This document shows, one piece after another, positions 1 to 64,000 of a stretch of DNA of 64,000 bases. The stretch covers positions 10,465,943 to 10,529,942 of the forward strand of contig CM041199.1 in the NCBI GenBank assembly GCA_023078555.1. The letters run 5' to 3'. How positions within the stretch are numbered: position 1 is the stretch's first letter; every line of letters starts with the position of its first letter. Position numbers and translations under genes: made by a program. The DNA comes from Ulva prolifera (Eukaryota > Chlorophyta > Ulvophyceae > Ulvales > Ulvaceae). Below the pieces are notes generated by a model that had not been told where the DNA came from, made no database searches, and worked only from the letters and a program-made list of their open reading frames with translations.

Positions 1-435
1 AGATCTAGGACGTCAAGTATGCATTGCACAGTTGTTGCTAACTCCTAGGAGTGGCGTGGAACAAAAGTGCACACTTTTCACCAACCATGTGAATGGACTT
101 GGTTGTAGCCACGCAACCCCCCGCGCAGCAAAAGGTACGTCGCCATCAACATTCCAAGATGTTGGAGGGTATGGGATGTCCATCATTCATTGCGTATTTT
201 CTGCAGACACCATGGAGTGGTGTAATGCAAAAGTGCACACTTTCCACCAACCCATGTGAATGGACTTGGTTGTAGCCACGCAACCCCCCGCGCATCAAAA
301 GGTACGTCGCCATGAACATTCCAAGATGTTTGGGGGTATGGGATGATTATCATTCATTGCATATTTGCTGCTGACTCCCAGGAGTGGCGTGGGGCAAAAG
401 TGCACACTTTTCACCAACCTTGTGAATGGACTTGG
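1..435 (+). repeat. HOR block 0, partial: (A)-B-C
   Basis: The window opens inside the A monomer, exactly at AGATCT; 102 of 165 bp are present. B is 103-269 with GTTGGAGGG and GTAATGC; C is 270-435 with a private GTTTGGGGG. The full block would be 498 bp. Confidence 0.92.
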
Positions 436-600
436 CTATACACAAGCATACCCCCGCGCACCATAGGGAAGTTGCCAGAAACATCCTTTGATTCTGAAAG
501 ATCTAGGACGTCAAGTATGCATTGCACAGTTGTTGCTAACTCCCAGGAGTGGCGTGGAACAAAAGTGCACACTTTTCACCAACCATGTGAATGGACTTGG
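436..600 (+). repeat. Class A (block head) monomer, type example
   Basis: 165 bp, starting CTATA(G/C)ACAAGC and ending GAATGGACTTGG. It is the most diverged class. The middle part (GGGAAGTTGCCAGAAACATC, then GATTCTGAAAGATCTAGG) aligns only loosely with other monomers, while the last 60 bp match well. Most copies hold a BglII site (AGATCT). Sixty-five A monomers occur, one per block, never two adjacent and never inside a block. Sub-lineages differ after TTGTTGCTAACT: CCCAGG, CCTAGG, ACTAGG, CCCAAG, or CCCAGGACTGG. Confidence 0.95.
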
Positions 601-644
601 TTGTAGCCACGCAACCCCCCGCGCAGCAAAAGGTACGTTGCCAT

Positions 645-662
645 CAACATTCCAAGATGTTG
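645..662. repeat. Second dyad, CAACAT/ATGTTG (example)
   Basis: CAACAT and ATGTTG flank TCCAAG. This 6-bp-arm inverted repeat recurs in monomers with the CATCAAC form; the CATGAAC form keeps 5-bp arms (AACAT/ATGTT). It lies about 75 bp upstream of the AAAGTG dyad. Confidence 0.85.
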
Positions 663-727
663 GGGGGTATGGGATGTCCATCATTCATTGCGTATTTTCT
701 GCAGACACCATGGAGTGGTGTGGTGCA

Positions 728-741
728 AAAGTGTACACTTT
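728..741. repeat. Perfect 14-bp palindrome in B monomers (example)
   Basis: AAAGTGTACACTTT equals its own reverse complement. It arises in B monomers with GTGTAC instead of the usual GTGCAC. A and C monomers have arms AAAAGTG and CACTTTT around a 2-base centre. In B a further TGGTG/CACCA pair lies outside (721-725 and 743-747), so every monomer has a dyad here. Confidence 0.9.
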
Positions 742-934
742 CCACCAACCCATGTGAATGGACTTGGTTGTAGCCACGCAACCCCCCGCGCATCAAAAGG
801 TACATCGCCATCAACATTCCAAGATGTTGGGGGGTATGGGATGTCCATCATTCATTGCGTATTTTCTGCAGACACCATGGAGTGGTGTGGTGCAAAAGTG
901 CACACTTTCCACCAACCCATGTGAATGGACTTGG

Positions 935-1100
935 TTGTAGCCACGCAACCCCCCGCGCATCAAAAGGTACGTCGCCATGAACATTCCAAGATGTTAGGGG
1001 GTATGGGATGATTATCATTCATTGCATATTTGCTGCTGACTCCCAGGAGTGGCGTGGGGCAAAAGTGCACACTTTTCACCAACCATGTGAATGGACTTGG
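935..1100 (+). repeat. Class C (block end) monomer, type example
   Basis: 166 bp. The first half is B-like (TTGTAGCC, GTACGTCGCCATGAACATTC). The second half switches at GGGATGATTATC to an A-like sequence (TTTGCTGCTGACTCCCAGG, GTGGCGTGGGGC). The last C of a block usually ends ACCTTGTGAATGG and joins CTATAG of the next A. A preceding C, where present, ends ACCATGTG and joins TTGTAG. The mosaic suggests an ancient A x B recombinant (inference). Confidence 0.93.
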
Positions 1101-1265
1101 TTGTAGCCACGCAACCCCCCGCGCATCAAAAGGTAGTCGCCATGAACATTCCAAGATGTTGGAGGGTATGGGATGATTATCATTCATTGCATATTTGCTG
1201 CTGACTCCCAGGAGTGGCGTGGGGCAAAAGTGCACACTTTTCACCAACCTTGTGAATGGACTTGG

Positions 1266-2428
1266 CTATAGACAAGCATACCCCCGCGCACCATAGGGAA
1301 GTTGCCAGAAACATCCTTTGATTCTGAAAGATCTAGGACGTCAAGTATGCATTGCACAGTTGTTGCTAACTCCCAGGAGTGGCGTGGAACAAAAGTGCAC
1401 ACTTTTCACCAACCATGTGAATGGACTTGGTTGTAGCCACGCAACCCCCCGCGCAGCAAAAGGTACGTTGCCATCAACATTCAAAGATGTTGGGGGGTAT
1501 GAGATGTCCATCATTCATTGCGTATTTTCTGCAGACACCATGGAGTGGTGTAATGCAAAAGTGCACACTTTCCACCAACCCATGTGAACGGACTTGGTTG
1601 CAGCCACGCAACCCCCCGCACATCAAAGGTACGACTACATGAACATTCCAAGATGTTGGGGGGTATGGGATGTCCATCATTCATTGCGTATTTTCTGCAG
1701 ACACCATGGAGTGGTGTAATGCAAAAGTGCACACTTTCCACCAACCCATGTGAACGGACTTGGTTGCAGCCACGCAACCCCCCGCACATCAAAGGTACGA
1801 CTACATGAACATTCCAAGATGTTGGGGGGCATGGGATGTCCATCATTCATTGCGTATTTTCTGCAGACACCATGGAGTGGTGTGGTGCAAAAGTGCACAC
1901 TTTCCACCAACCCATGTGAATGGACTTGGTTGTAGCCACGCAACCCCCCGCGCATCAAAAGGTACGTCGACATGAACATTCAAAGATGTTGGGGGGTATG
2001 GGATGTCCATCATTCATTGCGTATTTTCTGCAGACACCATGGAGTGGTGTGGTGCAAAAGTGCACACTTTCCACCAACCCATGTGAATGGACTTGGTTGT
2101 AGCCACGCAACCCCCCGCGCATCAAAGGGTACGTCGCCATGAACATTCCAAGATGTTAGGGGGTATGGGATGATTATCATTCATTGCATATTTGCTGCTG
2201 ACTCCCAGGAGTGGCGTGGGGCAAAAGTGCACACTTTTCACCAACCATGTGAATGGACTTGGTTGTAGCCACGCAACCCCCCGCGCATCAAAAGGTACGT
2301 CGCCATGAACATTCCAAGATGTTGGAGGGTATGGGATGATTATCATTCATTGCATATTTGCTGCTGACTCCCAGGAGTGGCGTGGGGCAAAAGTGCACAC
2401 TTTTCACCAACCTTGTGAATGGACTTGG
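1266..2428 (+). repeat. HOR block 2: A-B-D-D-B-C-C (7)
   Basis: 1,163 bp. Two D monomers (1598-1763, 1764-1929) follow the first B. The B at 1930 has GTCGACATGAACATTCAAAG, a variant seen after D throughout the array. Confidence 0.93.
1598..1763 (+). repeat. Class D monomer, type example
   Basis: 166 bp. A B relative starting TTGCAGCCACGC with CGCACATCAAAGG and TACGACTACATG or TACGATGACATG. It always follows a monomer ending GTAATGC...GAACGGACTTGG, so the two variants travel together as a linked pair. D occurs in blocks 2, 6, 9, 12, 13, 15-17, 19, 22, 24, 27, 35, 37, 40, 42, 43, 47, 54 and 61, at most three in a row. Confidence 0.93.
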
Positions 2429-3924
2429 CTATAGACAAGCATACCCCCGCGCACTATAGGGAAGTTGCCAGAAACATCCTTTGATTCTGAAAGATCTAGG
2501 ACGTCAAGTATGCATTGCACAGTTGTTGCTAACTCCTAGGAGTGGCGTGGAACAAAAGTGCACACTTTTTACCAACCATGTGAATGGACTTGGTTGTAGC
2601 CACGCAACCCCCCGCGCAGCAAAAGGTACGTCGCCATCAACATTCCAAGATTTTGGGGGGTATGGGATGTCCATCATTCATTGCGTATTTTCTGCAGACA
2701 CCATGGCGTGGTGTGGTGCAAAAGTGCACATTTTCCACCAACCCATGTGAATGGACTTGGTTGTACCCACGCACCCCCTGCGCATCAAAAGGTACGTCGC
2801 CATCAACATTCCAAGATGTTGGGGGTATGGGATGTCCATCATTCATTGCGTATTTTCTGCAGACACCATGGAGTGGTGTGGTGCAAAAGTGCACACTTTC
2901 CACCAACCCATGTGAATGGATTTGGTTGTAGCCACGCAACCCCCCGCGCATCAAAAGGTACGTCCCCATGAACATCCAAAGATGTTGGGGGGTATGGGAT
3001 GTCCATCATCCATTGCGTATTTTCTGCAGACACCATGGAGTGGTGTGGTGCAAAAGTGCACACTTTCCACCAACCCATGTGAATGGACTTGGTTGTAGCC
3101 ACGCAACCCCCCGCGCAGCAAAAGGTACGTCGCCATCAACATTCCAAGATTTTGGGGGGTATGGGATGTCCATCATTCATTGCGTATTTTCTGCAGACAC
3201 CATGGCGTGGTGTGGTGCAAAATTGCACATTTTCCACCAACCCATGTGAATGGACTTGGTTGTACCCACGCACCCCCTGCGCATCAAAAGGTACGTCGCC
3301 ATCAACATTCCAAGATGTTGGGGGTATGGGATGTCCATCATTCATTGCGTATTTTCTGCAGACACCATGGAGTGGTGTGGTGCAAAAGTGCACACTTTCC
3401 ACCAACCCATGTGAATGGACTTGGTTGTAGCCACGCAACCCCCCGCGCATCAAAAGGTACGTCCCCATGAACATTCAAAGATGTTGGGGGGTATGGGATG
3501 TCCATCATCCATTGCGTATTTTCTGCAGACACCATGGAGTGGTGTGGTGCAAAAGTGTACACTTTCCACCAACCCATGTGAATGGACTTGGTTGTAGCCA
3601 CGCAACCCCCCGCGCATCAAAAGGTACATCGCCATCAACATTCCAAGATGTTGGGGGGTATGGGATGTCCATCATTCATTGCGTATTTTCTGCAGACACC
3701 ATGGAGTGGTGTGGTGCAAAAGTGCACACTTTCCACCAACCCATGTGAATGGACTTGGTTGTAGCCACGCAACCCCCCGCGCATCAAAAGGTACGTCGCC
3801 ATGAACATTCCAAGATGTTGGGGGGTATGGGATGATTATCATTCATTGCATATTTGCTGCTGACTCCCAGGAGTGGCGTGGGGCAAAAGTGCACACTTTT
3901 CACCAACCTTGTGAATGGACTTGG
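2429..3924 (+). repeat. HOR block 3: A-B-E-B-B-E-B-B-C (9)
   Basis: 1,496 bp. Contains an internal tandem copy of a 499-bp B-E-B unit (2594-3092 and 3093-3591). The second copy differs by AAATTGCACATTTT and a few bases. The head carries GCACTATAGGG. Confidence 0.93.
2761..2925 (+). repeat. Class E monomer, type example
   Basis: 165 bp. A B relative starting TTGTACCCACGCACCCCC with CTGCGCATC, shorter than B by one base in the C run and one in the G run. It is always preceded by a B with GTGCACATTTTCC (or TTGCACATTTTCC) and always followed by a B. It occurs only in blocks 3, 29, 30, 33, 35, 40, 45, 49 and 51. Confidence 0.93.
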
Positions 3925-4422
3925 CTATAGACAAGCATACCCCCGCGCACCATAGGGAAGTTGCCAAAAACATCCTTTGATTCTGAAAGATGTAGGACGT
4001 CAAGTATGCATTGCACAGTTGTTGCTAACTCCTAGGAGTGGCGTGGAACAAAAGTGCACACTTTTCACCAACCATGTGAATGGACTTGGTTGTAGCCACG
4101 CAACCCCCCGCGCAGCAAAAGGTACGTCGCCATCAACATTCCAAGATGTTGGAGGGTATGGGATGTCCATCATTCATTGCGTATTTTCTGCAGACACCAT
4201 GGAGTGGTGTAATGCAAAAGTGCACACTTTCCACCAACCCATGTGAATGGACTTGGTTGTAGCCACGCAACCCCCCGCGCATGAAAAGGTGCGTCGCCAT
4301 GAACATTCCAAGATGTTGGGGGGTATGGGATGATTATCATTCATTGCATATTTGCTGCTGACTCCCAGGAGTGGCGTGGGGCAAAAGTGCACACTTTTCA
4401 CCAACCATGTGAATGGACTTGG
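3925..4422 (+). repeat. HOR block 4: A-B-C (3)
   Basis: 498 bp. The head has AGATGTAGG, which removes the BglII site. C has CATGAAAAGGTGCGTCG and ends ACCATGTG directly before CTATAG, marking a C-to-A junction unlike the usual ACCTTGTG. Confidence 0.93.
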
Positions 4423-5253
4423 CTATAGACAAGCATACCCCCGCGCACCATAGGGAAGTTGCCAGAAACATCCTTTGATTCTGAAAGATCTAGGACGTCA
4501 AGTATGCATTGCACAGTTGTTGCTAACTCCCAGGACTGGCGTGGAACAAAAGTGCACACTTTTCACCAACCATGTGAATGGACTTGGTTGTAGCCACGCA
4601 ACCCCCCGCGCAGCAAAAGGTACGTTGCCATCAACATTCCAAGATGTTGGGGGGTATGGGATGTCCATCATTCATTGCGTATTTTCTGCAGACACCATGG
4701 AGTGGTGTGGTGCAAAAGTGTACACTTTCCACCAACCCATGTGAATGGACTTGGTTGTAGCCACGCAACCCCCCGCGCATCAAAAGGTACATCGCCATCA
4801 ACATTCCAAGATGTTGGGGGGTATGGGATGTCCATCATTCATTGCGTATTTTCTGCAGACACCATGGAGTGGTGTGGTGCAAAAGTGCACACTGTCCACC
4901 AACCCATGTGAATGGACTTGGTTGTAGCCACGCAACCCCCCGCGCATCAAAAGGCACGTCGCCATGAACATTCCAAGATGTTAGGGGGTATGGGATGATT
5001 ATCATTCATTGCATATTTGCTGCTGACTCCCAGGAGTGGCGTGGGGCAAAAGTGCACACTTTTCACCAACCATGTGAACGGACTTGGTTGTAGCCACGCA
5101 ACCCCCCGCGCATCAAAAGGTACGTCGCCATGAACATTCCAAGATGTTGGAGGGTATGGGATGATTATCATTCATTGCATATTTGCTGCTGACTCCCAGG
5201 AGTGGCGTGGGGCAAAAGTGCACACTTTTCACCAACCTTGTGAATGGACTTGG
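4423..5253 (+). repeat. HOR block 5: A-B-B-C-C (5)
   Basis: 831 bp. Markers: CCCAGGACTGG in A, CACACTGTCC in the second B, GTTAGGGGG in the first C. The same marker set recurs at 54311, 56971, 57802 and 58800. Confidence 0.93.
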
Positions 5254-6584
5254 CTATAGACAAGCATACCCCCGCGCACCATAGGGAAGTTGCCAGAAAC
5301 ATCCTTTGATTCTGAAAGATCTAGGACGTCAAGTATGCATTGCACAGTTGTTGCTAACTCCCAGGAGTGGCGTGGAACAAAAGTGCACACTTTTCACCAA
5401 CCATGTGAATGGACTTGGTTGTAGCCACGCAACCCCCCGCGCAGCAAAAGGTACGTTGCCATCAACATTCAGAGATGTTGGGGGGTATGAGATGTCCATC
5501 ATTCATTGCGTATTTTCTGCAGACACCATGGAGTGGTGTAATGCAAAAGTGCACACTTTCCACCAACCCATGTGAACGGACTTGGTTGCAGCCACGCAAC
5601 CCCCCGCACATCAAAGGTACGACTACATGAACATTCCAAGATGTTGGGGGGCATGGGATGTCCATCATTCATTGCGTATTTTCTGCAGACACCATGGAGT
5701 GGTGTGGTGCAAAAGTGCACACTTTCCACCAACCCATGTGAATGGACTTGGTTGTAGCCACGCAACCCCCCGCGCATCAAAAGGTACGTCGACATGAACA
5801 TTCAAAGATGTTGGGGGGTATGGGATGTCCATCATTCATTGCGTATTTTCTGCAGACACCATGGAGTGGTGTAATGCAAAAGTGCACACTTTCCACCAAC
5901 CCATGTGAACGGACTTGGTTGCAGCCACGCAACCCCCCGCACATCAAATGTACGATGACATGAACATTCCAAGATGTTGGGGGGTATGGGATGTCCATCA
6001 TTCATTGCGTATTTTCTGCAGACACCATGGAGTGGTGTAATGCAAAAGTGCACACTTTCCACCAACCCATGTGAATGGACTTGGTTGTAGCCACGCAACC
6101 CCCCGCGCATCAAAAGGTACGTCCCCATGAACATTCAAAGATGTTGGGGGGTATGGGATGTCCATCATCCATTGCGTATTTTCTGCAGACACCATGGAGT
6201 GGTGTGGTGCAAAAGTGTACACTTTCCACCAACCCATGTGAATGGACTTGGTTGTAGCCACGCAACCCCCCGCGCATCAAAAGGTACATCGCCATCAACA
6301 TTCCAAGATGTTGGGGGGTATGGGATGTCCATCATTCATTGCTTATTTTCTGCAGACACCATGGAGTGGTGTGGTGCAAAAGTGCACACTTTCCACCAAC
6401 CCATGTGAATGGACTTGGTTGTAGCCACGCAACCCCCCGCGCATCAAAAGGTACGTCGCCATGAACATTCCAAGATGTTGGGGGGTATGGGATGATTATC
6501 ATTCATTGCATATTTGCTGCTGACTCCCAGGAGTGGCGTGGGGCAAAAGTGCACACTTTTCACCAACCTTGTGAATGGACTTGG
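5254..6584 (+). repeat. HOR block 6: A-B-D-B-D-B-B-C (8)
   Basis: 1,331 bp. First B has ACATTCAGAGATG and TATGAGATG. D and B alternate. The last B has the rare TGCTTATTTTCTG. The same 8-mer recurs at 17893, 55142 and 61293. Confidence 0.93.
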
Positions 6585-7082
6585 CTATAGACAAGCATAC
6601 CCCCGCGCACCATAGGGAAGTTGCCAGAAACATCCTTTGATTCTGAAAGATCTAGGACGTCAAGTATGCATTGCACAGTTGTTGCTAACTCCTAGGAGTG
6701 GCGTGGAACAAAAGTGCACACTTTTCACCAACCATGTGAATGGACTTGGTTGTAGCCACGCAACCCCCCGCGCAGCAAAAGGTACGTCGCCATCAACATT
6801 CCAAGATGTTGGAGGGTATGGGATGTCCATCATTCATTGCGTATTTTCTGCAGACACCATGGAGTGGTGTAATGCAAAAGTGCACACTTTCCACCAACCC
6901 ATGTGAATGGACTTGGTTGTAGCCACGCAACCCCCCGCGCATGAAAAGGTGCGTCGCCATGAACATTCCAAGATGTTGGGGGGTATGGGATGATTATCAT
7001 TCATTGCATATTTGCTGCTGACTCCCAGGAGTGGCGTGGGGCAAAAGTGCACACTTTTCACCAACCATGTGAATGGACTTGG
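6585..7082 (+). repeat. HOR block 7: A-B-C (3)
   Basis: 498 bp; like block 4 with GAAAAGGTGCG in C, but the head keeps AGATCTAGG. Confidence 0.93.
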
Positions 7083-7747
7083 CTATAGACAAGCATACCC
7101 CCGCGCACCATAGGGAAGTTGCCAGAAACATCCTTTGATTCTGAAAGATCTAGGACGTCAAGTATGCATTGCACAGTTGTTGCTGACTCCCAGGAGTGGC
7201 GTGGAACAAAAGTGCACACTTTTCACCAACCATGTGAATGGACTTGGTTGTAGCCACGCAACCCCCCGCGCAGCAAAAGGTACGTTGCCATCAACATTCC
7301 AAGATGTTGGGGGGTATGGGATGTCCATCATTCATTGCGTATTTTCTGCAGAAACCATGGAGTGGTGTGGTGCAAAAGTGTACACTTTCCACCAACCCAT
7401 GTGAATGGACTTGGTTGTAGCCACGCAACCCCCCGCGCATCAAAAGGTACATCGCCATCAACATTCCAAGATGTTGGGGGGTATGGGATGTCCATCATTC
7501 ATTGCGTATTTTCTGCATACACCATGGAGTGGTGTGGTGCAAAAGTGCACACTTTCCACCAACCCATGTGAATGGACTTGGTTGTAGCCACGCAACCCCC
7601 CGCGCATCAAAAGGTACGTCGCCATGAACATTCCAAGATGTTGGAGGGTATGGGATGATTATCATTCATTGCATATTTGCTGCTGACTCCCAGGAGTGGC
7701 GTGGGGCAAAAGTGCACACTTTTCACCAACCTTGTGAATGGACTTGG
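7083..7747 (+). repeat. HOR block 8: A-B-B-C (4)
   Basis: 665 bp. Markers: TTGTTGCTGACTCC in A, CTGCAGAAACC in the first B, CTGCATACACC in the second (PstI lost). Copies at 9912, 19722, 21218 and 24047 share all three. Confidence 0.93.
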
Positions 7748-20386: not shown

Positions 20387-21217
20387 CTATAGACAAGCAT
20401 ACCCCCGCGCACCATAGGGAAGTTGCCAGAAACATCCTTTGATTCTGAAAGATCTAGGACGTCAAGTATGCATTGCACTGTTGTTGCTAACTCCCAGGAG
20501 TGGCGTGGAACAAAAGTGCACACTTTTCACCAACCATGTGAATGGACTTGGTTGTAGCCACGCAACCCCCCGCGCAGCAAAAGGTACGTTGCCATCAACA
20601 TTCAGAGATGTTGGGGGGTATGAGATGTCCATCATTCATTGCGTATTTTCTGCAGACACCATGGAGTGGTGTAATGCAAAAGTGCACACTTTCCACCAAC
20701 CCATGTGAACGGACTTGGTTGCAGCCACGCAACCCCCCGCACATCAAAGATACGACTACATGAACATTCCAAGATGTTGGGGGGCATGGGATGTCCATCA
20801 TTCATTGCGTATTTTCTGCAGACACCATGGAGTGGTGTGGTGCAAAAGTGCACACTTTCCACCAACCCATGTGAATGGACTTGGTTGTAGCCACGCAACC
20901 CCCCGCGCATCAAAAGGTACGTCGACATGAACATTCAAAGATGTTGGGGGGTATGGGATGTCCATCATTCATTGCGTATTTTCTGCAGACACCATGGCGT
21001 GGTGTGGTGCAAAAGTGCACACTTTCCACCAACCCATGTGAATGGACTTGGTTGTAGCCACGCAACCCCCCGCGCATCAAAAGGTACGTCGCCATGAACA
21101 TTCAAAGATGTTGGGGGGTATGAGATGTCCATCATTCATTGCGTATTTTCTGCAGACACCATGGAGTGGTGTGGTGCAAAAGTGCACACTTTTCACCAAC
21201 CATGTGAATGGACTTGG
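20387..21217 (+). repeat. HOR block 22: A-B-D-B-(B/C hybrid) (5)
   Basis: 831 bp. Starts like block 9, then the fifth monomer (21052-21217) switches to a C end that joins the next A. This is the junction of a 1,496-bp tandem duplication. Confidence 0.93.
21052..21217 (+). repeat. B/C hybrid monomer at duplication joint
   Basis: B up to GTGGTGCAAAAGTGCACACTTT, then TCACCAACCATGTG and CTATAG as in a C-to-A junction. The exchange lies in the dyad box near 21180. Confidence 0.88.
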
Positions 21218-21882
21218 CTATAGACAAGCATACCCCCGCGCACCATAGGGAAGTTGCCAGAAACATCCTTTGATTCTGAAAGATCTAGGACGTCAAGTAT
21301 GCATTGCACAGTTGTTGCTGACTCCCAGGAGTGGCGTGGAACAAAAGTGCACACTTTTCACCAACCATGTGAATGGACTTGGTTGTAGCCACGCAACCCC
21401 CCGCGCAGCAAAAGGTACGTTGCCATCAACATTCCAAGATGTTGGGGGGTATGGGATGTCCATCATTCATTGCGTATTTTCTGCAGAAACCATGGAGTGG
21501 TGTGGTGCAAAAGTGTACACTTTCCACCAACCCATGTGAATGGACTTGGTTGTAGCCACGCAACCCCCCGCGCATCAAAAGGTACATCGCCATCAACATT
21601 CCAAGATGTTGGGGGGTATGGGATGTCCATCATTCATTGCGTATTTTCTGCATACACCATGGAGTGGTGTGGTGCAAAAGTGCACACTTTCCACCAACCC
21701 ATGTGAATGGACTTGGTTGTAGCCACGCAACCCCCCGCGCATCAAAAGGTACGTCGCCATGAACATTCCAAGATGTTGGAGGGTATGGGATGATTATCAT
21801 TCATTGCATATTTGCTGCTGACTCCCAGGAGTGGCGTGGGGCAAAAGTGCACACTTTTCACCAACCTTGTGAATGGACTTGG
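21218..21882 (+). repeat. HOR block 23: A-B-B-C (4)
   Basis: 665 bp; second copy of block 21, shifted by 1,496 bp. Confidence 0.93.
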
Positions 21883-35500: not shown

Positions 35501-35687
35501 CAACCATGTGAATGGACTTGGTTGTAGCCACGCAACCCCCCGTGCATCAAAAGGTACGTCGCCATGAACATTCCAAGATGTTGGAGGGTATGGGATGATT
35601 ATCATTCATTGCATATTTGCTGCTGACTCCCAGGAGTGGCGTGGGGCAAAAGTGCACACTTTTCACCAACCTTGTGAATGGACTTGG
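32526..35687 (+). repeat. HOR block 35: A-B-B-E-B-B-B-B-D-D-B-D-D-D-B-B-B-C-C (19)
   Basis: 3,162 bp, the longest block. Combines the E-rich front of block 30, two D runs and an A-B-B-C-C-like tail. A private CTGCAGTTACC lies near 34622. Confidence 0.93.
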
Positions 35688-36519
35688 CTATAGACAAGCA
35701 TACCCCCGCGCACCATAGGGAAGTTGCCAGAAACATCCTTTGATTCTGAAAGATCTAGGACGTCAAGTATGCATTGCACAGTTGTTGCTAACTACTAGGA
35801 GTGGCGTGGAACAAAAGTGCACACTTTTCACCAACCATGTGAATGGACTTGGTTGTAGCCACGCAACCCCCCGCGCAGCAAAAGGTACGTCGCCATCAAC
35901 ATTCCAAGATTTTGGGGGGTATGGGATGTCCATCATTCATTGCGTATTTTCTGCAGACACCATGGAGTGGTGTGGTGCAAAAGTGCACACTTTCCACCAA
36001 CCCATGTGAATGGACTTGGTTGTAGCCACGCAACCCCCCGCGCATCAAAAGGTACGTCCCCATGAACATTCAAAGATGTTGGGGGGTATGGGATGTCCAT
36101 CATCCATTGCGTATTTTCTGCAGACACCATGGAGTGGTGTGGTGCAAAAGTGTACACTTTCCACCAACCCATGTGAATGGACTTGGTTGTAGCCACGCAA
36201 CCCCCTGCGCATCAAAAGGTACATCGCCATCAACATTCCAAGATGTTGGGGGGTATGGGATGTCCATCATTCATTGCGTATTTTCTGCAGACACCATGGA
36301 GTGGTGTGGTGCAAAAGTGCACACTTTCCACCAACCCATGTGAATGGACTTGGTTGTAGCCACGCAACCCCCCGCGCATCAAAAGGTACGTCGCCATGAA
36401 CATTCCAAGATGTTGGGGGGTATGGGATGATTATCATTCATTGCATATTTGCTGCTGACTCCCAGGAGTGGCGTGGGGCAAAAGTGCACACTTTTCACCA
36501 ACCTTGTGAATGGACTTGG
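35688..36519 (+). repeat. HOR block 36: A-B-B-B-C (5)
   Basis: 832 bp, a third kind of pentamer. Head CTAACTACTAGG. The third B has CCCCCTGCGCATC and GTACATCGCC. Confidence 0.93.
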
Positions 36520-38515: not shown

Positions 38516-39013
38516 CTATAGACAAGCATACCCCCGCGCACCATAGGGAAGTTGCCAGAAACATCCTTTGATTCTGAAAGATCTAGGACGTCAAGTATGC
38601 ATTGCACAGTTGATGCTAACTCCTAGGAGTGGCGTGGAACAAAAGTGCACACTTTTCACCAACCATGTGAATGGACTTGGTTGTAGCCACGCAACCCCCC
38701 GCGCAGCAAAAGGTACGTTGCCATCAACATTCCAAGATGTTGGGGGGTATGGGATGTCCATCATTCATTGCGTATTTTCTGCAGACACCATGGAGTGGTG
38801 TGGTGCAAAAGTGTACACTTTCCACCAACCCATGTGAATGGACTTGGTTGTAGCCACGCAACCCCCCGCGCATCAAAGGGTACATCGCCATCAACATTTT
38901 AAGATGTTGGGGGGTATGGGATGATTATCATTCATTGCATATTTGCTGCTGACTCCCAGGAGTGGCGTGGGGCAAAAGTGCACACTTTTCACCAACCTTG
39001 TGAATGGACTTGG
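38516..39013 (+). repeat. HOR block 39: A-B-(B/C hybrid) (3)
   Basis: 498 bp copy of block 31 (GTTGATGCTAAC), shifted by 8,481 bp. Hybrid monomer 38848-39013. Confidence 0.93.
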
Positions 39014-41677
39014 CTATAGACAAGCATACCCCCGCGCACCATAGGGAAGTTGCCAGAAACATCCTTTGATTCTGAAAGATCTAGGACGTCAAGTATGCAT
39101 TGCACAGTTGTTGCTAACTACTAGGAGTGGCGTGGAACAAAAGTGCACACTTTTCACCAACCATGTGAATGGACTTGGTTGTAGCCACGCAACCCCCCGC
39201 GCAGCAAAAGGTACGTCGCCATCAACATTCCAAGATTTTGGGGGGTATGGGATGTCCATCATTCATTGCGTATTTTCTGCAGACACCATGGCGTGGTGTG
39301 GTGCAAAAGTGCACACTTTCCACCAACCCATGTGAATGGACTTGGTTGTAGCCACGCAACCCCCCGCGCAGCAAAAGGTACATCGCGATCAACATTCCAA
39401 GATGTTGGGGGGTATGGGATGTCCATCATTCATTGCGTATTTTCTGCAGACACCATGGCGTGGTGTGGTGCAAAAGTGCACATTTTCCACCAACCCATGT
39501 GAATGGACTTGGTTGTACCCACGCACCCCCTGCGCATCAAAAGGTACGTCGCCATCAACATTCCAAGATGTTGGGGGTATGGGATGTCCATCATTCATTG
39601 CGTATTTTCTGCAGACACCATGGAGTGGTGTGGTGCAAAAGTGCACACTTTCCACCAACCCATGTGAATGGACTTGGTTGTAGCCACGCAACCCCCCGCG
39701 CATCAAAAGGTACGTCCCCATGAACATTCAAAGATGTTGGGGGGTATGGGATGTCCATCGTCCATTGCGTATTTTCTGCAGACACCATGGAGTGGTGTGG
39801 TGCAAAAGTGCACACTTTCCACCAACCCATGTGAATGGACTTGGTTGTAGCCACGCAACCCCCCGCGCATCAAAAGGTACGTCCCCATGAACATTCAAAG
39901 ATGTTGGGGGGTATGGGATGTCCATCATCCATTGCGTATTTTCTGCAGACACCATGGAGTGGTGTGGTGCAAAAGTGCACACTTTCCACCAACCCATGTG
40001 AATGGATTTGGTTGTAGCCACGCAACCCCCCGCGCATCAAAAGGTACGTCCCCATGAACATCCAAAGATGTTGGGGGGTATGGGATGTCCATCATCCATT
40101 GCGTATTTTCTGCAGACACCATGGAGTGGTGTGGTGCAAAAGTGCACACTTTCCACCAACCCATGTGAATGGACTTGGTTGTAGCCACGCAACCCCCCGC
40201 GCAGCAAAAGGTACGTCGCCATCAACATTCCAAGATTTTGGGGGGTATGGGATGTCCATCATTCATTGCGTATTTTCTGCAGACACCATGGAGTGGTGTA
40301 ATGCAAAAGTGCACACTTTCCACCAACCCATGTGAACGGACTTGGTTGCAGCCACGCAACCCCCCGCACATCAAAGGTACGACTACATGAACATTCCAAG
40401 ATGTTGGGGGGTATGGGATGTCCATCATTCATTGCGTATTTTCTGCAGACACCATGGAGTGGTGTAATGCAAAAGTGCACACTTTCCACCAACCCATGTG
40501 AACGGACTTGGTTGCAGCCACGCAACCCCCCGCACATCAAAGGTACGACTACATGAACATTCCAAGATGTTGGGGGGCATGGGATGTCCATCATTCATTG
40601 CGTATTTTCTGCAGACACCATGGAGTGGTGTGGTGCAAAAGTGCACACTTTCCACCAACCCATGTGAATGGACTTGGTTGTAGCCACGCAACCCCCCGCG
40701 CATCAAAAGGTACGTCGACATGAACATTCAAAGATGTTGGGGGGTATGGGATGTCCATCATTTATTGCGTATTTTCTGCAGACACCATGGCGTGGTGTGG
40801 TGCAAAAGTGCACACTTTCCACCAACCCATGTGAATGGACTTGGTTGTAGCCACGCAACCCCCCGCGCATCAAAAGGTACGTCGCCATGAACATTCAAAG
40901 ATGTTGGGGGGTATGAGATGTCCATCATTCATTGCGTATTTTCTGCAGACACCATGGAGTGGTGTGGTGCAAAAATGCACACTTTCCACCAACCCATGTG
41001 AATGGACTTGGTTGTAGCCACGCAACCCCCCGCGCAGCAAAAGGTACGTTGCCATCAACATTCCAAGATGTTGGGGGGTATGGGATGTCCATCATTCATT
41101 GCGTATTTTCTGCAGACACCATGGCGTGGTGTGGTGCAAAAGTGTACACTTTCCACCAACCCATGTGAATGGACTTGGTTGTAGCCACGCAACCCCCCGC
41201 GCATCAAAAGGTACATCGCCATCAACATTTTAAGATGTTGGGGGGTATGGGATGTCCATCATTCATTGCGTATTTTCTGCAGACACCATGGAGTGGTGTG
41301 GTGCAAAAGTGCACACTTTCCACCAACCCATGTGAATGGACTTGGTTGTAGCCACGCAACCCCCCGCGCATCAAAAGGTACGTCGCCATGAACATTCCAA
41401 GATGTTGGGGGGTATGGGATGATTATCATTCATTGCATATTTGCTGCTGACTCCTAGGAGTGGCGTGGGGCAAAAGTGCACACTTTTCACCAACCATGTG
41501 AATGGACTTGGTTGTAGCCACGCAACCCCCCGCGCATCAAAAGGTACGTCGCCATGAACATTCCAAGATGTTGGAGGGTATGGGATGATTATCATTCATT
41601 GCATATTTGCTGCTGACTCCCAGGAGTGGCGTGGGGTAAAAGTGCACACTTTTCACCAACCTTGTGAATGGACTTGG
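39014..41677 (+). repeat. HOR block 40: A-B-B-E-B-B-B-B-D-D-B-B-B-B-C-C (16)
   Basis: 2,664 bp. Block 35 with a net loss of three monomers in the D region. The B after D-D has ATCATTTATTGCG. Confidence 0.93.
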
Positions 41678-41730
41678 CTATAGACAAGCATACCCCCGCG
41701 CACCATAGGGAAGTTGCCAGAAACATCCTT
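39014..41730. repeat. Distant copy of 32526-35740 with three monomers fewer
   Basis: The shift is 6,488 bp up to about 40750, then 5,990 bp to the end of block 40. The difference of 498 bp equals the three monomers missing from the D region. Confidence 0.85.
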
Positions 41731-55141: not shown

Positions 55142-56472
55142 CTATAGACAAGCATACCCCCGCGCACCATAGGGAAGTTGCCAGAAACATCCTTTGATTC
55201 TGAAAGATCTAGGACGTCAAGTATGCATTGCACAGTTGTTGCTAACTCCCAGGAGTGGCGTGGAACAAAAGTGCACACTTTTCACCAACCATGTGAATGG
55301 ACTTGGTTGTAGCCACGCAACCCCCCGCGCAGCAAAAGGTACGTTGCCATCAACATTCAGAGATGTTGGGGGGTATGAGATGTCCATCATTCATTGCGTA
55401 TTTTCTGCAGACACCATGGAGTGGTGTAATGCAAAAGTGCACACTTTCCACCAACCCATGTGAACGGACTTGGTTGCAGCCACGCAACCCCCCGCACATC
55501 AAAGGTACGACTACATGAACATTCCAAGATGTTGGGGGGCATGGGATGTCCATCATTCATTGCGTATTTTCTGCAGACACCATGGAGTGGTGTGGTGCAA
55601 AAGTGCACACTTTCCACCAACCCATGTGAATGGACTTGGTTGTAGCCACGCAACCCCCCGCGCATCAAAAGGTACGTCGACATGAACATTCCAAGATGTT
55701 GGGGGGTATGGGATGTCCATCATTCATTGCGTATTTTCTGCAGACACCATGGAGTGGTGTAATGCAAAAGTGCACACTTTCCACCAACCCATGTGAACGG
55801 ACTTGGTTGCAGCCACGCAACCCCCCGCACATCAAAGGTACGATAACATGAACATTCCAAGATGTTGGGGGGTATGGGATGTCCATCATTCATTGCGTAT
55901 TTTCTGCAGACACCATGGAGTGGTGTAATGCAAAAGTGCACACTTTCCACCAACCCATGTGAATGGACTTGGTTGTAGCCACGCAACCCCCCGCGCATCA
56001 AAAGGTACGTCCCCATGAACATTCAAAGATGTTGGGGGGTATGGGATGTCCATCATCCATTGCGTATTTTCTGCAGACACCATGGAGTGGTGTGGTGCAA
56101 AAGTGTACACTTTCCACCAACCCATGTGAATGGACTTGGTTGTAGCCACGCAACCCCCCGCGCATCAAAAGGTACATCGCCATCAACATTCCAAGATGTT
56201 GGGGGGTATGGGATGTCCATCATTCATTGCGTATTTTCTGCAGACACCATGGAGTGGTGTGGTGCAAAAGTGCACACTTTCCACCAACCCATGTGAATGG
56301 ACTTGGTTGTAGCCACGCAACCCCCCGCGCATCAAAAGGTACGTCGCCATGAACATTCCAAGATGTTGGGGGGTATGGGATGATTATCATTCATTGCATA
56401 TTTGCTGCTGACTCCCAGGAGTGGCGTGGGGCAAAAGTGCACACTTTTCACCAACCTTGTGAATGGACTTGG
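55142..56472 (+). repeat. HOR block 54: A-B-D-B-D-B-B-C (8)
   Basis: 1,331 bp copy of block 6, but with TGCGTATTTTC in the last B and TACGATAACATG in one D. Confidence 0.93.
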
Positions 56473-56970
56473 CTATAGACAAGCATACCCCCGCGCACCA
56501 TAGGGAAGTTGCCAGAAACATCCTTTGATTCTGAAAGATGTAGGACGTCAAGTATGCATTGCACAGTTGTTGCTAACTCCTAGGAGTGGCGTGGAACAAA
56601 AGTGCACACTTTTCACCAACCATGTGAATGGACTTGGTTGTAGCCACGCAACCCCCCGCGCAGCAAAAGGTACGTCGCCATCAACATTCCAAGATGTTGG
56701 AGGGTATGGGATGTCCATCATTCATTGCGTATTTTCTGCAGACACCATGGAGTGGTGTAATGCAAAAGTGCACACTTTCCACCAACCCATGTGAATGGAC
56801 TTGGTTGTAGCCACGCAACCCCCCGCGCATGAAAAGGTGCGTCGCCATGAACATTCCAAGATGTTGGGGGGTATGGGATGATTATCATTCATTGCATATT
56901 TGCTGCTGACTCCCAGGAGTGGCGTGGGGCAAAAGTGCACACTTTTCACCAACCATGTGAATGGACTTGG
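56473..56970 (+). repeat. HOR block 55: A-B-C (3)
   Basis: 498 bp, AGATGTAGG head; copy of block 52, shifted by 2,660 bp. Confidence 0.93.
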
Positions 56971-57801
56971 CTATAGACAAGCATACCCCCGCGCACCATA
57001 GGGAAGTTGCCAGAAACATCCTTTGATTCTGAAAGATCTAGGACGTCAAGTATGCATTGCACAGTTGTTGCTAACTCCTAGGACTGGCGTGGAACAAAAG
57101 TGCACACTTTTCACCAACCATGTGAATGGACTTGGTTGTAGCCACGCAACCCCCCGCGCAGCAAAAGGTACGTTGCCATCAACATTCCAAGATGTTGGGG
57201 GGTATGGGATGTCCATCATTCATTGCGTATTTTCTGCAGACACCATGGAGTGGTGTGGTGCAAAAGTGTACACTTTCCACCAACCCATGTGAATGGACTT
57301 GGTTGTAGCCACGCAACCCCCCGCGCATCAAAAGGTACATCGCCATCAACATTCCAAGATGTTGGGGGGTATGGGATGTCCATCATTCATTGCGTATTTT
57401 CTGCAGACACCATGGAGTGGTGTGGTGCAAAAGTGCACACTGTCCACCAACCCATGTGAATGGACTTGGTTGTAGCCACGCAACCCCCCGCGCATCAAAA
57501 GGTACGTCGCCATGAACATTCCAAGATGTTAGGGGGTATGGGATGATTATCATTCATTGCATATTTGCTGCTGACTCCCAGGAGTGGCGTGGGGCAAAAG
57601 TGCACACTTTTCACCAACCATGTGAATGGACTTGGTTGTAGCCACGCAACCCCCCGCGCATCAAAAGGTACGTCGCCATGAACATTCCAAGATGTTGGAG
57701 GGTATGGGATGATTATCATTCATTGCATATTTGCTGCTGACTCCCAGGAGTGGCGTGGGGCAAAAGTGCACACTTTTCACCAACCTTGTGAATGGACTTG
57801 G
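56971..57801 (+). repeat. HOR block 56: A-B-B-C-C (5)
   Basis: 831 bp, block 5 lineage, with CCTAGGACTGG in the head. Confidence 0.93.
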
Positions 57802-58799
57802 CTATAGACAAGCATACCCCCGCGCACCATAGGGAAGTTGCCAGAAACATCCTTTGATTCTGAAAGATCTAGGACGTCAAGTATGCATTGCACAGTTGTT
57901 GCTAACTCCCAGGACTGGCGTGGAACAAAAGTGCACACTTTTCACCAACCATGTGAATGGACTTGGTTGTAGCCACGCAACCCCCCGCGCAGCAAAAGGT
58001 ACGTTGCCATCAACATTCCAAGATGTTGGGGGGTATGGGATGTCCATCATTCATTGCGTATTTTCTGCAGACACCATGGAGTGGTGTGGTGCAAAAGTGT
58101 ACACTTTCCACCAACCCATGTGAATGGACTTGGTTGTAGCCACGCAACCCCCCGCGCATCAAAAGGTACATCGCCATCAACATTCCAAGATGTTGGGGGG
58201 TATGGGATGTCCATCATTCATTGCGTATTTTCTGCAGACACCATGGAGTGGTGTGGTGCAAAAGTGCACACTGTCCACCAACCCATGTGAATGGACTTGG
58301 TTGTAGCCACGCAACCCCCCGCGCATCAAAAGGTACGTCGCCATGAACATTCCAAGATGTTAGGGGGTATGGGATGATTATCATTCATTGCATATTTGCT
58401 GCTGACTCCCAGGAGTGGCGTGGGGCAAAAGTGCACACTTTTCACCAACCATGTGAATGGACTTGGTTGTAGCCACGCAACCCCCCGCGCATCAAAAGGT
58501 ACGTCGCCATGAACATTCCAAGATGTTGGAGGGTATGGGATGTCCATCATTCATTGCGTATTTTCTGCAGACACCATGGAGTGGTGTAATGCAAAAGTGC
58601 ACACTTTCCACCAACCCATGTGAATGGACTTGGTTGTAGCCACGCAACCCCCCGCGCATGAAAAGGTGCGTCGCCATGAACATTCCAAGATGTTGGGGGG
58701 TATGGGATGATTATCATTCATTGCATATTTGCTGCTGACTCCCAGGAGTGGCGTGGGGCAAAAGTGCACACTTTTCACCAACCATGTGAATGGACTTGG
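57802..58799 (+). repeat. HOR block 57: A-B-B-C-B-C (6)
   Basis: 998 bp. A C in the middle is followed by a GCGCATC-type B with GTTGGAGGG and GTAATGC, then a GAAAAGGTGCG-type C. Looks like a pentamer fused to the tail of a block-55-type trimer. Confidence 0.93.
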
Positions 58800-59630
58800 C
58801 TATAGACAAGCATACCCCCGCGCACCATAGGGAAGTTGCCAGAAACATCCTTTGATTCTGAAAGATCTAGGACGTCAAGTATGCATTGCACAGTTGTTGC
58901 TAACTCCCAGGACTGGCGTGGAACAAAAGTGCACACTTTTCACCAACCATGTGAATGGACTTGGTTGTAGCCACGCAACCCCCCGCGCAGCAAAAGGTAC
59001 GTTGCCATCAACATTCCAAGATGTTGGGGGGTATGGGATGTCCATCATTCATTGCGTATTTTCTGCAGACACCATGGAGTGGTGTGGTGCAAAAGTGTAC
59101 ACTTTCCACCAACCCATGTGAATGGACTTGGTTGTAGCCACGCAACCCCCCGCGCATCAAAAGGTACATCGCCATCAACATTCCAAGATGTTGGGGGGTA
59201 TGGGATGTCCATCATTCATTGCGTATTTTCTGCAGACACCATGGAGTGGTGTGGTGCAAAAGTGCACACTGTCCACCAACCCATGTGAATGGACTTGGTT
59301 GTAGCCACGCAACCCCCCGCGCATCAAAAGGTACGTCGCCATGAACATTCCAAGATGTTAGGGGGTATGGGATGATTATCATTCATTGCATATTTGCTGC
59401 TGACTCCCAGGAGTGGCGTGGGGCAAAAGTGCACACTTTTCACCAACCATGTGAATGGACTTGGTTGTAGCCACGCAACCCCCCGCGCATCAAAAGGTAC
59501 GTCGCCATGAACATTCCAAGATGTTGGAGGGTATGGGATGATTATCATTCATTGCATATTTGCTGCTGACTCCCAGGAGTGGCGTGGGGCAAAAGTGCAC
59601 ACTTTTCACCAACCTTGTGAATGGACTTGG
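58800..59630 (+). repeat. HOR block 58: A-B-B-C-C (5)
   Basis: 831 bp, block 5 lineage (CCAGGACTGG). Confidence 0.93.
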
Positions 59631-60461
59631 CTATAGACAAGCATACCCCCGCGCACCATAGGGAAGTTGCCAGAAACATCCTTTGATTCTGAAAGATCTA
59701 GGACGTCAAGTATGCATTGCACAGTTGTTGCTAACTCCTAGGAGTGGCGTGGAACAAAAGTGCACACTTTTCACCAACCATGTGAATGGACTTGGTTGTA
59801 GCCACGCAACCCCCCGCGCAGCAAAAGGTACGTCGCCATCAACATTCCAAGATGTTGGGGGGTATGGGATGTCCATCATTCATTGCGTATTTTCTGCAGA
59901 CACCATGGAGTGGTGTGGTGCAAAAGTGTACACTTTCCACCAACCCATGTGAATGGACTTGGTTGTAGCCACGCAACCCCCCGCGCATCAAAAGGTACAT
60001 CGCCATCAACATTCCAAGATGTTGGGGGGTATGGGATGTCCATCATTCATTGCGTATTTTCTGCAGACACCATGGAGTGGTGTGGTGCAAAAGTGCACAC
60101 TGTCCACCAACCCATGTGAATGGACTTGGTTGTAGCCACGCAACCCCCCGCGCATCAAAAGGTACGTCGCCATGAACATTCCAAGATGTTAGGGGGTATG
60201 GGATGATTATCATTCATTGCATATTTGCTGCTGACTCCCAGGAGTGGCGTGGGGCAAAAGTGCACACTTTTCACCAACCATGTGAATGGACTTGGTTGTA
60301 GCCACGCAACCCCCCGCGCATCAAAAGGTACGTCGCCATGAACATTCCAAGATGTTGGAGGGTATGGGATGATTATCATTCATTGCATATTTGCTGCTGA
60401 CTCCCAGGAGTGGCGTGGGGCAAAAGTGCACACTTTTCACCAACCTTGTGAATGGACTTGG
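59631..60461 (+). repeat. HOR block 59: A-B-B-C-C (5)
   Basis: 831 bp. CCTAGGAGTGG head and ACGTCGCC first B, joined to the CACACTGTCC second B. Confidence 0.93.
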
Positions 60462-61292
60462 CTATAGACAAGCATACCCCCGCGCACCATAGGGAAGTTG
60501 CCAGAAACATCCTTTGATTCTGAAAGATCTAGGACGTCAAGTATGCATTGCACAGTTGTTGCTAACTCCTAGGAGTGGCGTGGAACAAAAGTGCACACTT
60601 TTCACCAACCATGTGAATGGACTTGGTTGTAGCCACGCAACCCCCCGCGCAGCAAAAGGTACGTCGCCATCAACATTCCAAGATGTTGGGGGGTATGGGA
60701 TGTCCATCATTCATTGCGTATTTTCTGCAGACACCATGGAGTGGTGTGGTGCAAAAGTGTACACTTTCCACCAACCCATGTGAATGGACTTGGTTGTAGC
60801 CACGCAACCCCCCGCGCATCAAAAGGTACATCGCCATCAACATTCCAAGATGTTGGGGGGTATGGGATGTCCATCATTCATTGCGTATTTTCTGCAGACA
60901 CCATGGAGTGGTGTGGTGCAAAAGTGCACACTGTCCACCAACCCATGTGAATGGACTTGGTTGTAGCCACGCAACCCCCCGCGCATCAAAAGGTACGTCG
61001 CCATGAACATTCCAAGATGTTAGGGGGTATGGGATGATTATCATTCATTGCATATTTGCTGCTGACTCCCAGGAGTGGCGTGGGGCAAAAGTGCACACTT
61101 TTCACCAACCATGTGAATGGACTTGGTTGTAGCCACGCAACCCCCCGCGCATCAAAAGGTACGTCGCCATGAACATTCCAAGATGTTGGAGGGTATGGGA
61201 TGATTATCATTCATTGCATATTTGCTGCTGACTCCCAGGAGTGGCGTGGGGCAAAAGTGCACACTTTTCACCAACCTTGTGAATGGACTTGG
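60462..61292 (+). repeat. HOR block 60: A-B-B-C-C (5)
   Basis: 831 bp. I found no difference from block 59 by eye, so this is the youngest-looking duplication in the window. Confidence 0.93.
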
Positions 61293-62623
61293 CTATAGAC
61301 AAGCATACCCCCGCGCACCATAGGGAAGTTGCCAGAAACATCCTTTGATTCTGAAAGATCTAGGACGTCAAGTATGCATTGCACAGTTGTTGCTAACTCC
61401 CAGGAGTGGCGTGGAACAAAAGTGCACACTTTTCACCAACCATGTGAATGGACTTGGTTGTAGCCACGCAACCCCCCGCGCAGCAAAAGGTACGTTGCCA
61501 TCAACATTCAGAGATGTTGGGGGGTATGAGATGTCCATCATTCATTGCGTATTTTCTGCAGACACCATGGAGTGGTGTAATGCAAAAGTGCACACTTTCC
61601 ACCAACCCATGTGAACGGACTTGGTTGCAGCCACGCAACCCCCCGCACATCAAAGGTACGACTACATGAACATTCCAAGATGTTGGGGGGCATGGGATGT
61701 CCATCATTCATTGCGTATTTTCTGCAGACACCATGGAGTGGTGTGGTGCAAAAGTGCACACTTTCCACCAACCCATGTGAATGGACTTGGTTGTAGCCAC
61801 GCAACCCCCCGCGCATCAAAAGGTACGTCGACATGAACATTCCAAGATGTTGGGGGGTATGGGATGTCCATCATTCATTGCGTATTTTCTGCAGACACCA
61901 TGGAGTGGTGTAATGCAAAAGTGCACACTTTCCACCAACCCATGTGAACGGACTTGGTTGCAGCCACGCAACCCCCCGCACATCAAAGGTACGATGACAT
62001 GAACATTCCAAGATGTTGGGGGGTATGGGATGTCCATCATTCATTGCGTATTTTCTGCAGACACCATGGAGTGGTGTAATGCAAAAGTGCACACTTTCCA
62101 CCAACCCATGTGAATGGACTTGGTTGTAGCCACGCAACCCCCCGCGCATCAAAAGGTACGTCCCCATGAACATTCAAAGATGTTGGGGGGTATGGGATGT
62201 CCATCATCCATTGCGTATTTTCTGCAGACACCATGGAGTGGTGTGGTGCAAAAGTGTACACTTTCCACCAACCCATGTGAATGGACTTGGTTGTAGCCAC
62301 GCAACCCCCCGCGCATCAAAAGGTACATCGCCATCAACATTCCAAGATGTTGGGGGGTATGGGATGTCCATCATTCATTGCGTATTTTCTGCAGACACCA
62401 TGGAGTGGTGTGGTGCAAAAGTGCACACTTTCCACCAACCCATGTGAATGGACTTGGTTGTAGCCACGCAACCCCCCGCGCATCAAAAGGTACGTCGCCA
62501 TGAACATTCCAAGATGTTGGGGGGTATGGGATGATTATCATTCATTGCATATTTGCTGCTGACTCCCAGGAGTGGCGTGGGGCAAAAGTGCACACTTTTC
62601 ACCAACCTTGTGAATGGACTTGG
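61293..62623 (+). repeat. HOR block 61: A-B-D-B-D-B-B-C (8)
   Basis: 1,331 bp copy of the block 6/54 type. Confidence 0.93.
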
Positions 62624-63121
62624 CTATAGACAAGCATACCCCCGCGCACCATAGGGAAGTTGCCAGAAACATCCTTTGATTCTGAAAGATCTAGGACGTC
62701 AAGTATGCATTGCACAGTTGTTGCTAACTCCTAGGAGTGGCGTGGAACAAAAGTGCACACTTTTCACCAACCATGTGAATGGACTTGGTTGTAGCCACGC
62801 AACCCCCCGCGCAGCAAAAGGTACGTCGCCATCAACATTCCAAGATGTTGGAGGGTATGGGATGTCCATCATTCATTGCGTATTTTCTGCAGACACCATG
62901 GAGTGGTGTAATGCAAAAGTGCACACTTTCCACCAACCCATGTGAATGGACTTGGTTGTAGCCACGCAACCCCCCGCGCATGAAAAGGTGCGTCGCCATG
63001 AACATTCCAAGATGTTGGGGGGTATGGGATGATTATCATTCATTGCATATTTGCTGCTGACTCCCAGGAGTGGCGTGGGGCAAAAGTGCACACTTTTCAC
63101 CAACCATGTGAATGGACTTGG
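62624..63121 (+). repeat. HOR block 62: A-B-C (3)
   Basis: 498 bp, GAAAAGGTGCG family, AGATCTAGG head; copy of the block 7 type. Confidence 0.93.
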
Positions 63122-63784
63122 CTATAGACAAGCATACCCCCGCGCACCATAGGGAAGTTGCCAGAAACATCCTTTGATTCTGAAAGATCTAGGACGTCAA
63201 GTATGCATTGCACAGTTGTTGCTAACTCCCAGGAGTGGCGTGGAACAAAAGTGCACACTTTTCACCAACCATGTGAATGGACTTGGTTGTAGCCACGCAA
63301 CCCCCCGCGCAGCAAAAGGTACGTTGCCATCAACATTCCAAGATGTTGGGGGGTATGGGATGTCCATCATTCATTGCGTATTTTCTGCAGAAACCATGGA
63401 GTGGTGTGGTGCAAAAGTGCACACTTTCCACCAACCCATGTGAACGGACTTGGTTGCAGCCACGCAACCCCCCGCACATCAAAGGTACGTCGCCATGAAC
63501 ATTCCAAGATCTTAGGGGGTATGGGATGATTATCATTCATTGCATATTTGCTGCTGACTCCCAGGAGTGGCGTGGGGCAAAAGTGCACACTTTTCACCAA
63601 CCATGTGAATGGACTTGGTTGTAGCCACGCAACCCCCCGCGCATCAAAAGGTACGTCGCCATGAACATTCCAAGATGTTGGAGGGTATGGGATGATTATC
63701 ATTCATTGCATATTTGCTGCTGACTCCCAGGAGTGGCGTGGGGCAAAAGTGCACACTTTTCACCAACCTTGTGAATGGACTTGG
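63122..63784 (+). repeat. HOR block 63: A-B-(D/C hybrid)-C (4)
   Basis: 663 bp. The first B has the block-8 marker CAGAAACC but ends GAACGG. The third monomer (63454-63618) starts as D and ends as C, with a private AAGATCTTAGGGGG that creates an extra BglII site. Confidence 0.93.
63454..63618 (+). repeat. D/C hybrid monomer
   Basis: D start (TTGCAGCC, CGCACATCAAAGG), then GTACGTCGCCATG and the C body. The exchange lies near the GGTACG shared by both. Confidence 0.85.
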
Positions 63785-64000
63785 CTATAGACAAGCATAC
63801 CCCCGCGCACCATAGGGAAGTTGCCAGAAACATCCTTTGATTCTGAAAGATCTAGGACGTCAAGTATGCATTGCACAGTTGTTGCTAACTCCCAGGAGTG
63901 GCGTGGAACAAAAGTGCACACTTTTCACCAACCATGTGAATGGACTTGGTTGTAGCCACGCAACCCCCCGCGCAGCAAAAGGTACGTTGCCATCAACATT
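63785..64000 (+). repeat. HOR block 64, partial: A-(B)
   Basis: A complete A (63785-63949, CCCAGGAGTGG) and 51 bp of a GCGCAGC-type B with ACGTTGCC. The array runs off the window edge. Confidence 0.92.

Follow-up and report, generated by a model that had tools for sequence, protein, structure and literature searches.

Out-of-register exchange was put forward by Smith as the maker of satellites (as related in PMC8122249; this source and those cited below were available in part, and statements resting on them are limited to those parts). Among human higher-order repeats (HORs), whole-monomer structural variants (StVs) are described in all, with hybrid monomers abundant (PMC9549924), and the hybrid picture of alpha satellite depends on where the monomer is taken to start (PMC9549924; PMC8336445). 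Units in which monomer types recur are described as cascading HORs on human chromosome 3 (PMC11157248). In mouse-cell reporters, divergence suppresses repeat-mediated deletion through MSH2, MSH6 and MLH1 (PMC9881173), and described green-algal centromeres are largely made of transposable elements (TEs) (PMC11005252). Here we analyse a satellite array of the green alga Ulva prolifera, starting from a stretch of 64,000 nucleotides (“the window”; C4:10,465,943-10,529,942, C4 being contig CM041199.1 of assembly GCA_023078555.1, a genome of 88.9 Mb in 44 contigs), in which blocks of monomers keep their ends while their middles vary. This block grammar is probably the product of ordinary unequal exchange, in which a diverged monomer, A, pairs only with its own kind and no special constraint is needed.

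We cut the window into monomers at GGAGTGG and assigned them to classes by diagnostic columns of an alignment that omits insertions. The 385 anchors form a long head-to-tail array of one monomer family on one strand, spaced 161-167 bp apart (165-167 bp with the single exception of 161), and they delimit 384 complete monomers. Cutting at each of the 64 A monomers yields 63 complete A-to-A blocks of 3-19 monomers each. The following features, given in window positions, serve as examples.

1..64000, + strand: piece of the ~1.08-Mb array of 165-167-bp monomers; every pattern match lies on the same strand
345..583, + strand: example of a whole cassette, made up of c-junction (C end), A and a-junction (B start)
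381..545, + strand: example A monomer in the GGAGTGG frame; columns 0-55 are like other monomers, 56-167 diverged
381..1210, + strand: example block ABDCC, the first complete one, in a form shared by 10 of the 63 blocks
21163..21327, + strand: A with a d-type start, belonging to block ABDDD; the only such A in the window, preceded by D, not C

A is followed by a B carrying GCGCAGC in 62 of the 63 blocks and C terminates 60, so the first-pass annotation described the blocks of this window correctly. Its statement that one A starts each block is true by construction, blocks being cut at A, and is not an independent rule; since A defines the blocks, a free interior A could never count against it. 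The blocks that lack a plain C end are ABH (twice, the end of H being partly c-type) and ABDDD (once). C is doubled at the end of 20 blocks and is found in the interior, beyond the terminal run, in three (ABDDDEDCEDEC twice and ABDCDC once). The same monomer type is repeated inside a unit, as in cascading HORs (e.g., ABDDDDDC), and the commonest forms, as candidates for one canonical unit, are ABC with 15 of the 63 blocks, ABDCC with 10 and ABDC with 6. A 17-base motif of B has 83 matches in the window against 0.00 expected in shuffled sequence, so the pattern is not due to chance.

The classes differ in a way that is concentrated around A. Consensus identity between A and the other classes is 0.73-0.75 (0.726 with D), and B, C, D and E are 0.90-0.98 identical to each other. 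Mean identities in the window are 0.951-0.989 within classes and 0.706-0.949 between them; with the recurring blocks, these values describe multi-monomer units whose classes are internally more alike. Only five columns of A differ from D in 0-55, and all remaining differences fall in 56-167, giving a diverged part of 112 bp with a sharp boundary at column 56. Of the 8 columns that distinguish B from D, 5 fall within the first 38, and C is 94.6% identical to D, its 9 differing columns all lying in the last 35. What sets C apart thus lies directly before A, and the distinctive start of B directly after it. C-A-B is a set of slices of a single ~240-bp diverged cassette divided by the monomer frame, and B and C are canonical monomers bearing its edges. 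With the frame started at the junction, the window's monomers sort into (d,d) 211, (a,b) 63, (c,x) 63, (d,b) 22, (c,d) 21 and 4 others; the C end is then no separate type, and each block consists of the cassette and, after it, a variable run. For any b in 102-133, C[:b]+B[b:] gives the D consensus with no mismatch, and for any b in 38-82 it gives the E consensus; this makes D and E look like C/B mosaics, and an equal reading is that B and C are canonical monomers with the edges of A attached. The monomer frame can make one diverged segment look like a grammar with two conserved ends. We also observed AAAAGTGCACACTTT, which contains a dyad (AAAGTG-CA-CACTTT), at columns ~15-30 in all five class consensuses, A included, where it sits in the portion that resembles the other classes.

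Products of exchange could be read directly, as window positions 48-45,900 (the first 45.8 kb) are copied ~333 kb downstream at C4:10,795,802-10,844,700 with 99.95% identity. The copy was found by unique 100-mers and monomer alignment and compared as far as the stretch read (10.845 Mb). Across 270 aligned monomers there are 22 differences (0.0005 per site) and four structural changes, involving 22 monomers, one D, ABDDC and ABC; shifted alignments of window and copy by blastn reached 86-87% only, among the best 25 of 685. The four changes map to the window as follows.

1983..2051, + strand: exchange site; 22 monomers of the copy are absent from the window, the break lying between D and C/B-type monomers
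6196..6362, + strand: one D monomer, present in the window and absent from the copy
35633..36464, + strand: block ABDDC, five monomers, present in the window and absent from the copy; the break is in C-A register
38912..39120, + strand: site of an extra ABC block in the copy; the exchange interval runs from C column 120 to A column 160

Several multi-block repeats are also internal to the window, and at least 6 near-identical segment alignments each were found between the window and the stretch holding the copy and within that stretch. From such segment pairs we obtained 20 exchange sites (47 of 50 event rows, merged by hand; 3 with a split cost of 81-140 were dropped), leaving out two-sided gaps and flanks with more than 4 differences. 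Twelve lie between canonical monomers, four are wholly in C-A register, two are in other registers that likewise include A-A, one is BB/CC/DD and one is E-A. This E-A switch, placed within 6 bp at window positions 21176-21182, falls in the undiverged 5' third of A and made the C-less block ABDDD. The sites in C-A register mean that exchange points do fall in block ends, with like matched to like. The suggested restriction of exchange to B, D and E does not agree with these four sites, of which the ABC gain is one example, and C, which had been supposed too diverged to pair with the other monomers, is in fact close to D and pairs with it at observed exchange points. An exchange hot spot near the monomer boundary was considered and is not claimed: the mass there was 8.1 of 13, with 5.9 expected (p 0.06), and the region had been picked afterwards.

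The window is part of a head-to-tail array of ~1.08 Mb that starts near C4:~10,095,520 and extends as far as position 11,177,226, where it meets a run of N. We read 10.095-10.280 Mb (the left part), the window, 10.795-10.845 Mb (the copy) and the last 3.6 kb; eight further short array loci were read and kept out of the counts, and ~0.78 Mb of the array lies outside the stretches read. In every long stretch read, A is unbroken beyond column 56: 277 A monomers score 14-16 of 16 A-states and the 1469 other monomers score 0-1, with no intermediate, though window and copy are not independent within this census. The idea that A is too diverged to pair with other monomers is thus borne out where A is diverged.

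The fixed ends themselves are not a general rule of the array. In the copy they hold much as in the window (C end in 44 of 47 blocks, A-B start in 46, interior C in 2). The left part, which is perhaps an older flank of the array, is looser: C terminates 106 of its 161 complete blocks, the other ends being E (38), B (7), H (6), k (3, a monomer that also carries a c-type end) and D (1); 130 of the 161 start with A-B, and 41 have an interior C, an outcome that the first-pass annotation had named as refuting its reading (seven of 1049 intervals, from flank and insertion, were excluded). Among the 163 A starts of the left part, 113 are c-type, 47 d-type and 3 ambiguous. Eighteen of the d-start A are 165-166 bp long and in register (17 of them at 166), and 29 are 182-183 bp long. 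In two of the longer ones that we inspected, a canonical monomer continues beyond its usual boundary before the sequence skips back to A; this join is one non-homologous event, later amplified. It has 43 mismatch-free copies genome-wide, all within ~93 kb to the left of the window (C4:10,216,695-10,309,224). For the in-register D-to-A switch the whole genome has 18 pattern matches, confined to 10.160-10.345 Mb, and the left part accounts for 16. Genome-wide, the patterns for the cassette 3' end and for C-to-A gave at least 942 and at least 826 matches; these patterns find 112 and 80, respectively, for the 163 A of the left part and 63 each for the 64 A of the window.

We simulated arrays of consensus monomers in which an exchange was accepted with probability exp(-beta x mismatches in 51 bp), drawing exchange sizes from 21 observed values listed by hand, stopping at a block-length spread of 3.4 and counting k among the C ends. 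Starting from ABDDDC, with 20 runs per setting, type-blind exchange (beta 0) gave a hybrid A fraction of 0.18, C ends of 0.84, GCGCAGC starts of 0.84 and interior C of 0.15. The same four values were 0.09, 0.84, 0.88 and 0.09 at beta 0.1; 0.01, 0.95, 0.86 and 0.04 at beta 0.3; 0, 0.99, 0.89 and 0.01 at beta 0.6; and 0, 1.00, 0.95 and 0 at beta 1. The window shows 0, 0.95, 0.98 and 0.05. From the six-monomer start, type-blind exchange therefore leaves 18% of A broken, whereas none of the 277 observed A is (these not all being independent). With other settings (8 runs each), windows of 51 and 101 bp agreed from this start, and a 25-bp window at beta 0.5 fitted less well (C end 0.90, GCGCAGC 0.78, 6.5 A-A neighbours). 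From a nine-monomer start, identity models retained 0.96-1.00 of both ends, and the mean block length stayed near 9, compared with 6.05 observed. The proposal that the block ends are constrained is not needed by the six-monomer identity model, under which 0.95-0.99 of C ends survive and 0-0.01 of A are hybrid, and a constraint on the C end in particular is at odds with the left part, where 47 of its 163 A have no C end before them. Whether identity alone can reproduce the pattern has a divided answer: it does so from some starts and not from ABC. In the model, identity dependence is sufficient from a suitable start; this is a matter of sufficiency only, and the start itself is not derived.

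Several results count against explaining the grammar in this way. From the nine-monomer start, type-blind exchange also retains 0.92 of C ends and 0.94 of GCGCAGC starts, with 7% of A broken; ends are kept there because ~47 events suffice, so end statistics discriminate weakly. From ABC, the length spread was on average reached in only one of six identity settings, and the setting that reached it kept C ends at only 0.82 and GCGCAGC at 0.54. A longer starting block must therefore be assumed, and a pure ABC trimer, which fits poorly as the simulated ancestor, is not claimed. GCGCAGC retention is 0.98 observed and 0.86-0.89 modelled at beta 0.3-0.6, about one standard deviation off; A-A neighbours, of which none was observed, appear in some settings of the model (mean 1.85 at beta 0.3, 6.5 with the 25-bp window); and the model derives neither the doubled C nor the long blocks. 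Finally, the list of 20 sites carries a bias against hybrids, whose flanks do not pass its filter, and because this filter hides A/D hybrids, the P of 0.018 obtained from the list is not used as proof; the census of A-states is free of this bias.

The mechanism that we favour would be out-of-register homologous exchange, by unequal crossover or repair between sister or neighbouring repeats, with a probability that declines with local mismatch. The canonical B, C, D and E, 90-98% alike, would pair with one another and so alter the number of D and E. The diverged 112 bp of A would pair with A alone, so that whole blocks move as units and A stays unbroken, and the junctions beside A (the C end and the B start) would be carried along, being physically joined to it. 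Blocks would then mostly keep A-B and C ends without selection. The rare loss of the C side may come about by an in-register switch in the similar 5' third of A or by a non-homologous join, and the C-less variants may then amplify locally. As to the molecular pathway, we infer mismatch-sensitive exchange, as in heteroduplex rejection.

Recent descent only, in which a few multi-block segments were copied wholesale and few blocks are independent, would also preserve block ends. The 99.95%-identical copy and the internal multi-block repeats do imply that independent events are far fewer than 63 blocks, and one odd join recurs in 43 identical copies. However, the middles changed between window and copy and the ends did not, and the left part, which showed no near-identical segment of several blocks in common with the window above the score limit, has many further block forms and no broken A. 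As the whole explanation recent descent appears improbable, and it is best viewed as part of the explanation by mismatch-sensitive exchange. Slightly less probable again is selection on the A cassette or on the C end, which might for instance serve as a boundary bound by protein, with exchange products that break it being lost. No class of the window is more uniform than A (mean pairwise identity 0.989), none of the 277 A is broken, and A differs between window and left part by 0.033, less than E (0.035), C (0.038) and D (0.057); yet B differs even less (0.0225), so that the uniformity of A is not special, the C side is missing before some A of the left part (47 of 163), and the identity model alone, from the six-monomer start, yields zero or nearly zero broken A. 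We consider it very unlikely that the 333-kb copy or the block-length differences are assembly errors. The array does end at exactly 5,000 N, which may be an assembly gap, and monomer lengths are irregular (162-169) across the last 3.6 kb before it, which suggests a weaker consensus there, but window and copy are separated by 22 substitutions and four clean whole-monomer changes, and monomers in the window are 165-167 bp long with a single 161.

The setting of the array may be more interesting than its grammar. The N run lies 6.4 kb before the contig end, with ~1.4 kb of other sequence beyond it. A 19-base monomer pattern matches 5503 times forward and 0 times in reverse genome-wide, all on C4 among the matches listed; from the density in the stretches read, ~6000 would be predicted for this array alone, so that no second large array is indicated, with the listing reaching as far as C4. 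A search for the exact plant-type telomere pattern gave 0 matches, a result of little weight. Inside the array but outside the window (C4:10,120,162-10,130,512) we observed a 10,351-bp Ty3-type long terminal repeat (LTR) retroelement with a chromodomain; it has profile matches to RVT_1, RNase H, integrase zinc-binding and Chromo, termini TG...CA and what looks like a 5-bp target duplication, CGTGG. An open stretch in the array's left flank (locus L010:540-2650) is by eye like a hAT-type transposase with a BED-like zinc finger. Elsewhere in the genome, Rubisco small-subunit genes are present on two contigs.

The array could be its chromosome's ~1-Mb HOR satellite centromere, with the A cassette as a periodic element kept by low exchange; we offer this as a tentative candidate that is rather unlikely to be right. 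We recognised no green-algal satellite HOR centromere in the literature among the matches listed. Green-algal centromeres would be the candidate setting for the array if it is centromeric, and those described, in the part of PMC11005252 available, are largely TE-built, not satellite HORs; in that case satellite HORs would join the described types.

Compared with known repeats, the array is a HOR-type satellite with structural variants in the broad sense only. It shares with alpha-satellite StVs the whole-monomer insertions and deletions of a primary unit, the length-keeping hybrids and the dependence on frame (PMC9549924, PMC8336445), but it is not alpha satellite, the mosaics D and E are its largest group in the window, and it has only one strongly diverged monomer. 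With cascading HORs, as far as PMC11157248 was available, it shares a monomer type that recurs in the unit and lengths varied by multiplying inner parts. Monomers there differ by ~20-40% within a unit, whereas the consensuses of B, C, D and E differ by 2-10%; by the strict Willard-type or cascading measure (~20-40% divergence, PMC11157248) A alone qualifies, at 0.73-0.75 to the others, and because B, C, D and E do not, we file the array under broad-sense HOR satellites only. Suppression by MSH2, MSH6 and MLH1 is a route, known from mouse-cell reporters, from repeat mismatch to lower exchange (PMC9881173). As a natural test of how far repeats must diverge before exchange in a tandem array stops, the array is clean: A exchanges in register with other monomers only on its similar side (0-55) and not in 56-167. 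Like Smith's unequal-crossover model (PMC8122249), our explanation has repeats generated and homogenised without selection; what is added for this array is a dependence on local identity, which keeps the modelled A intact.

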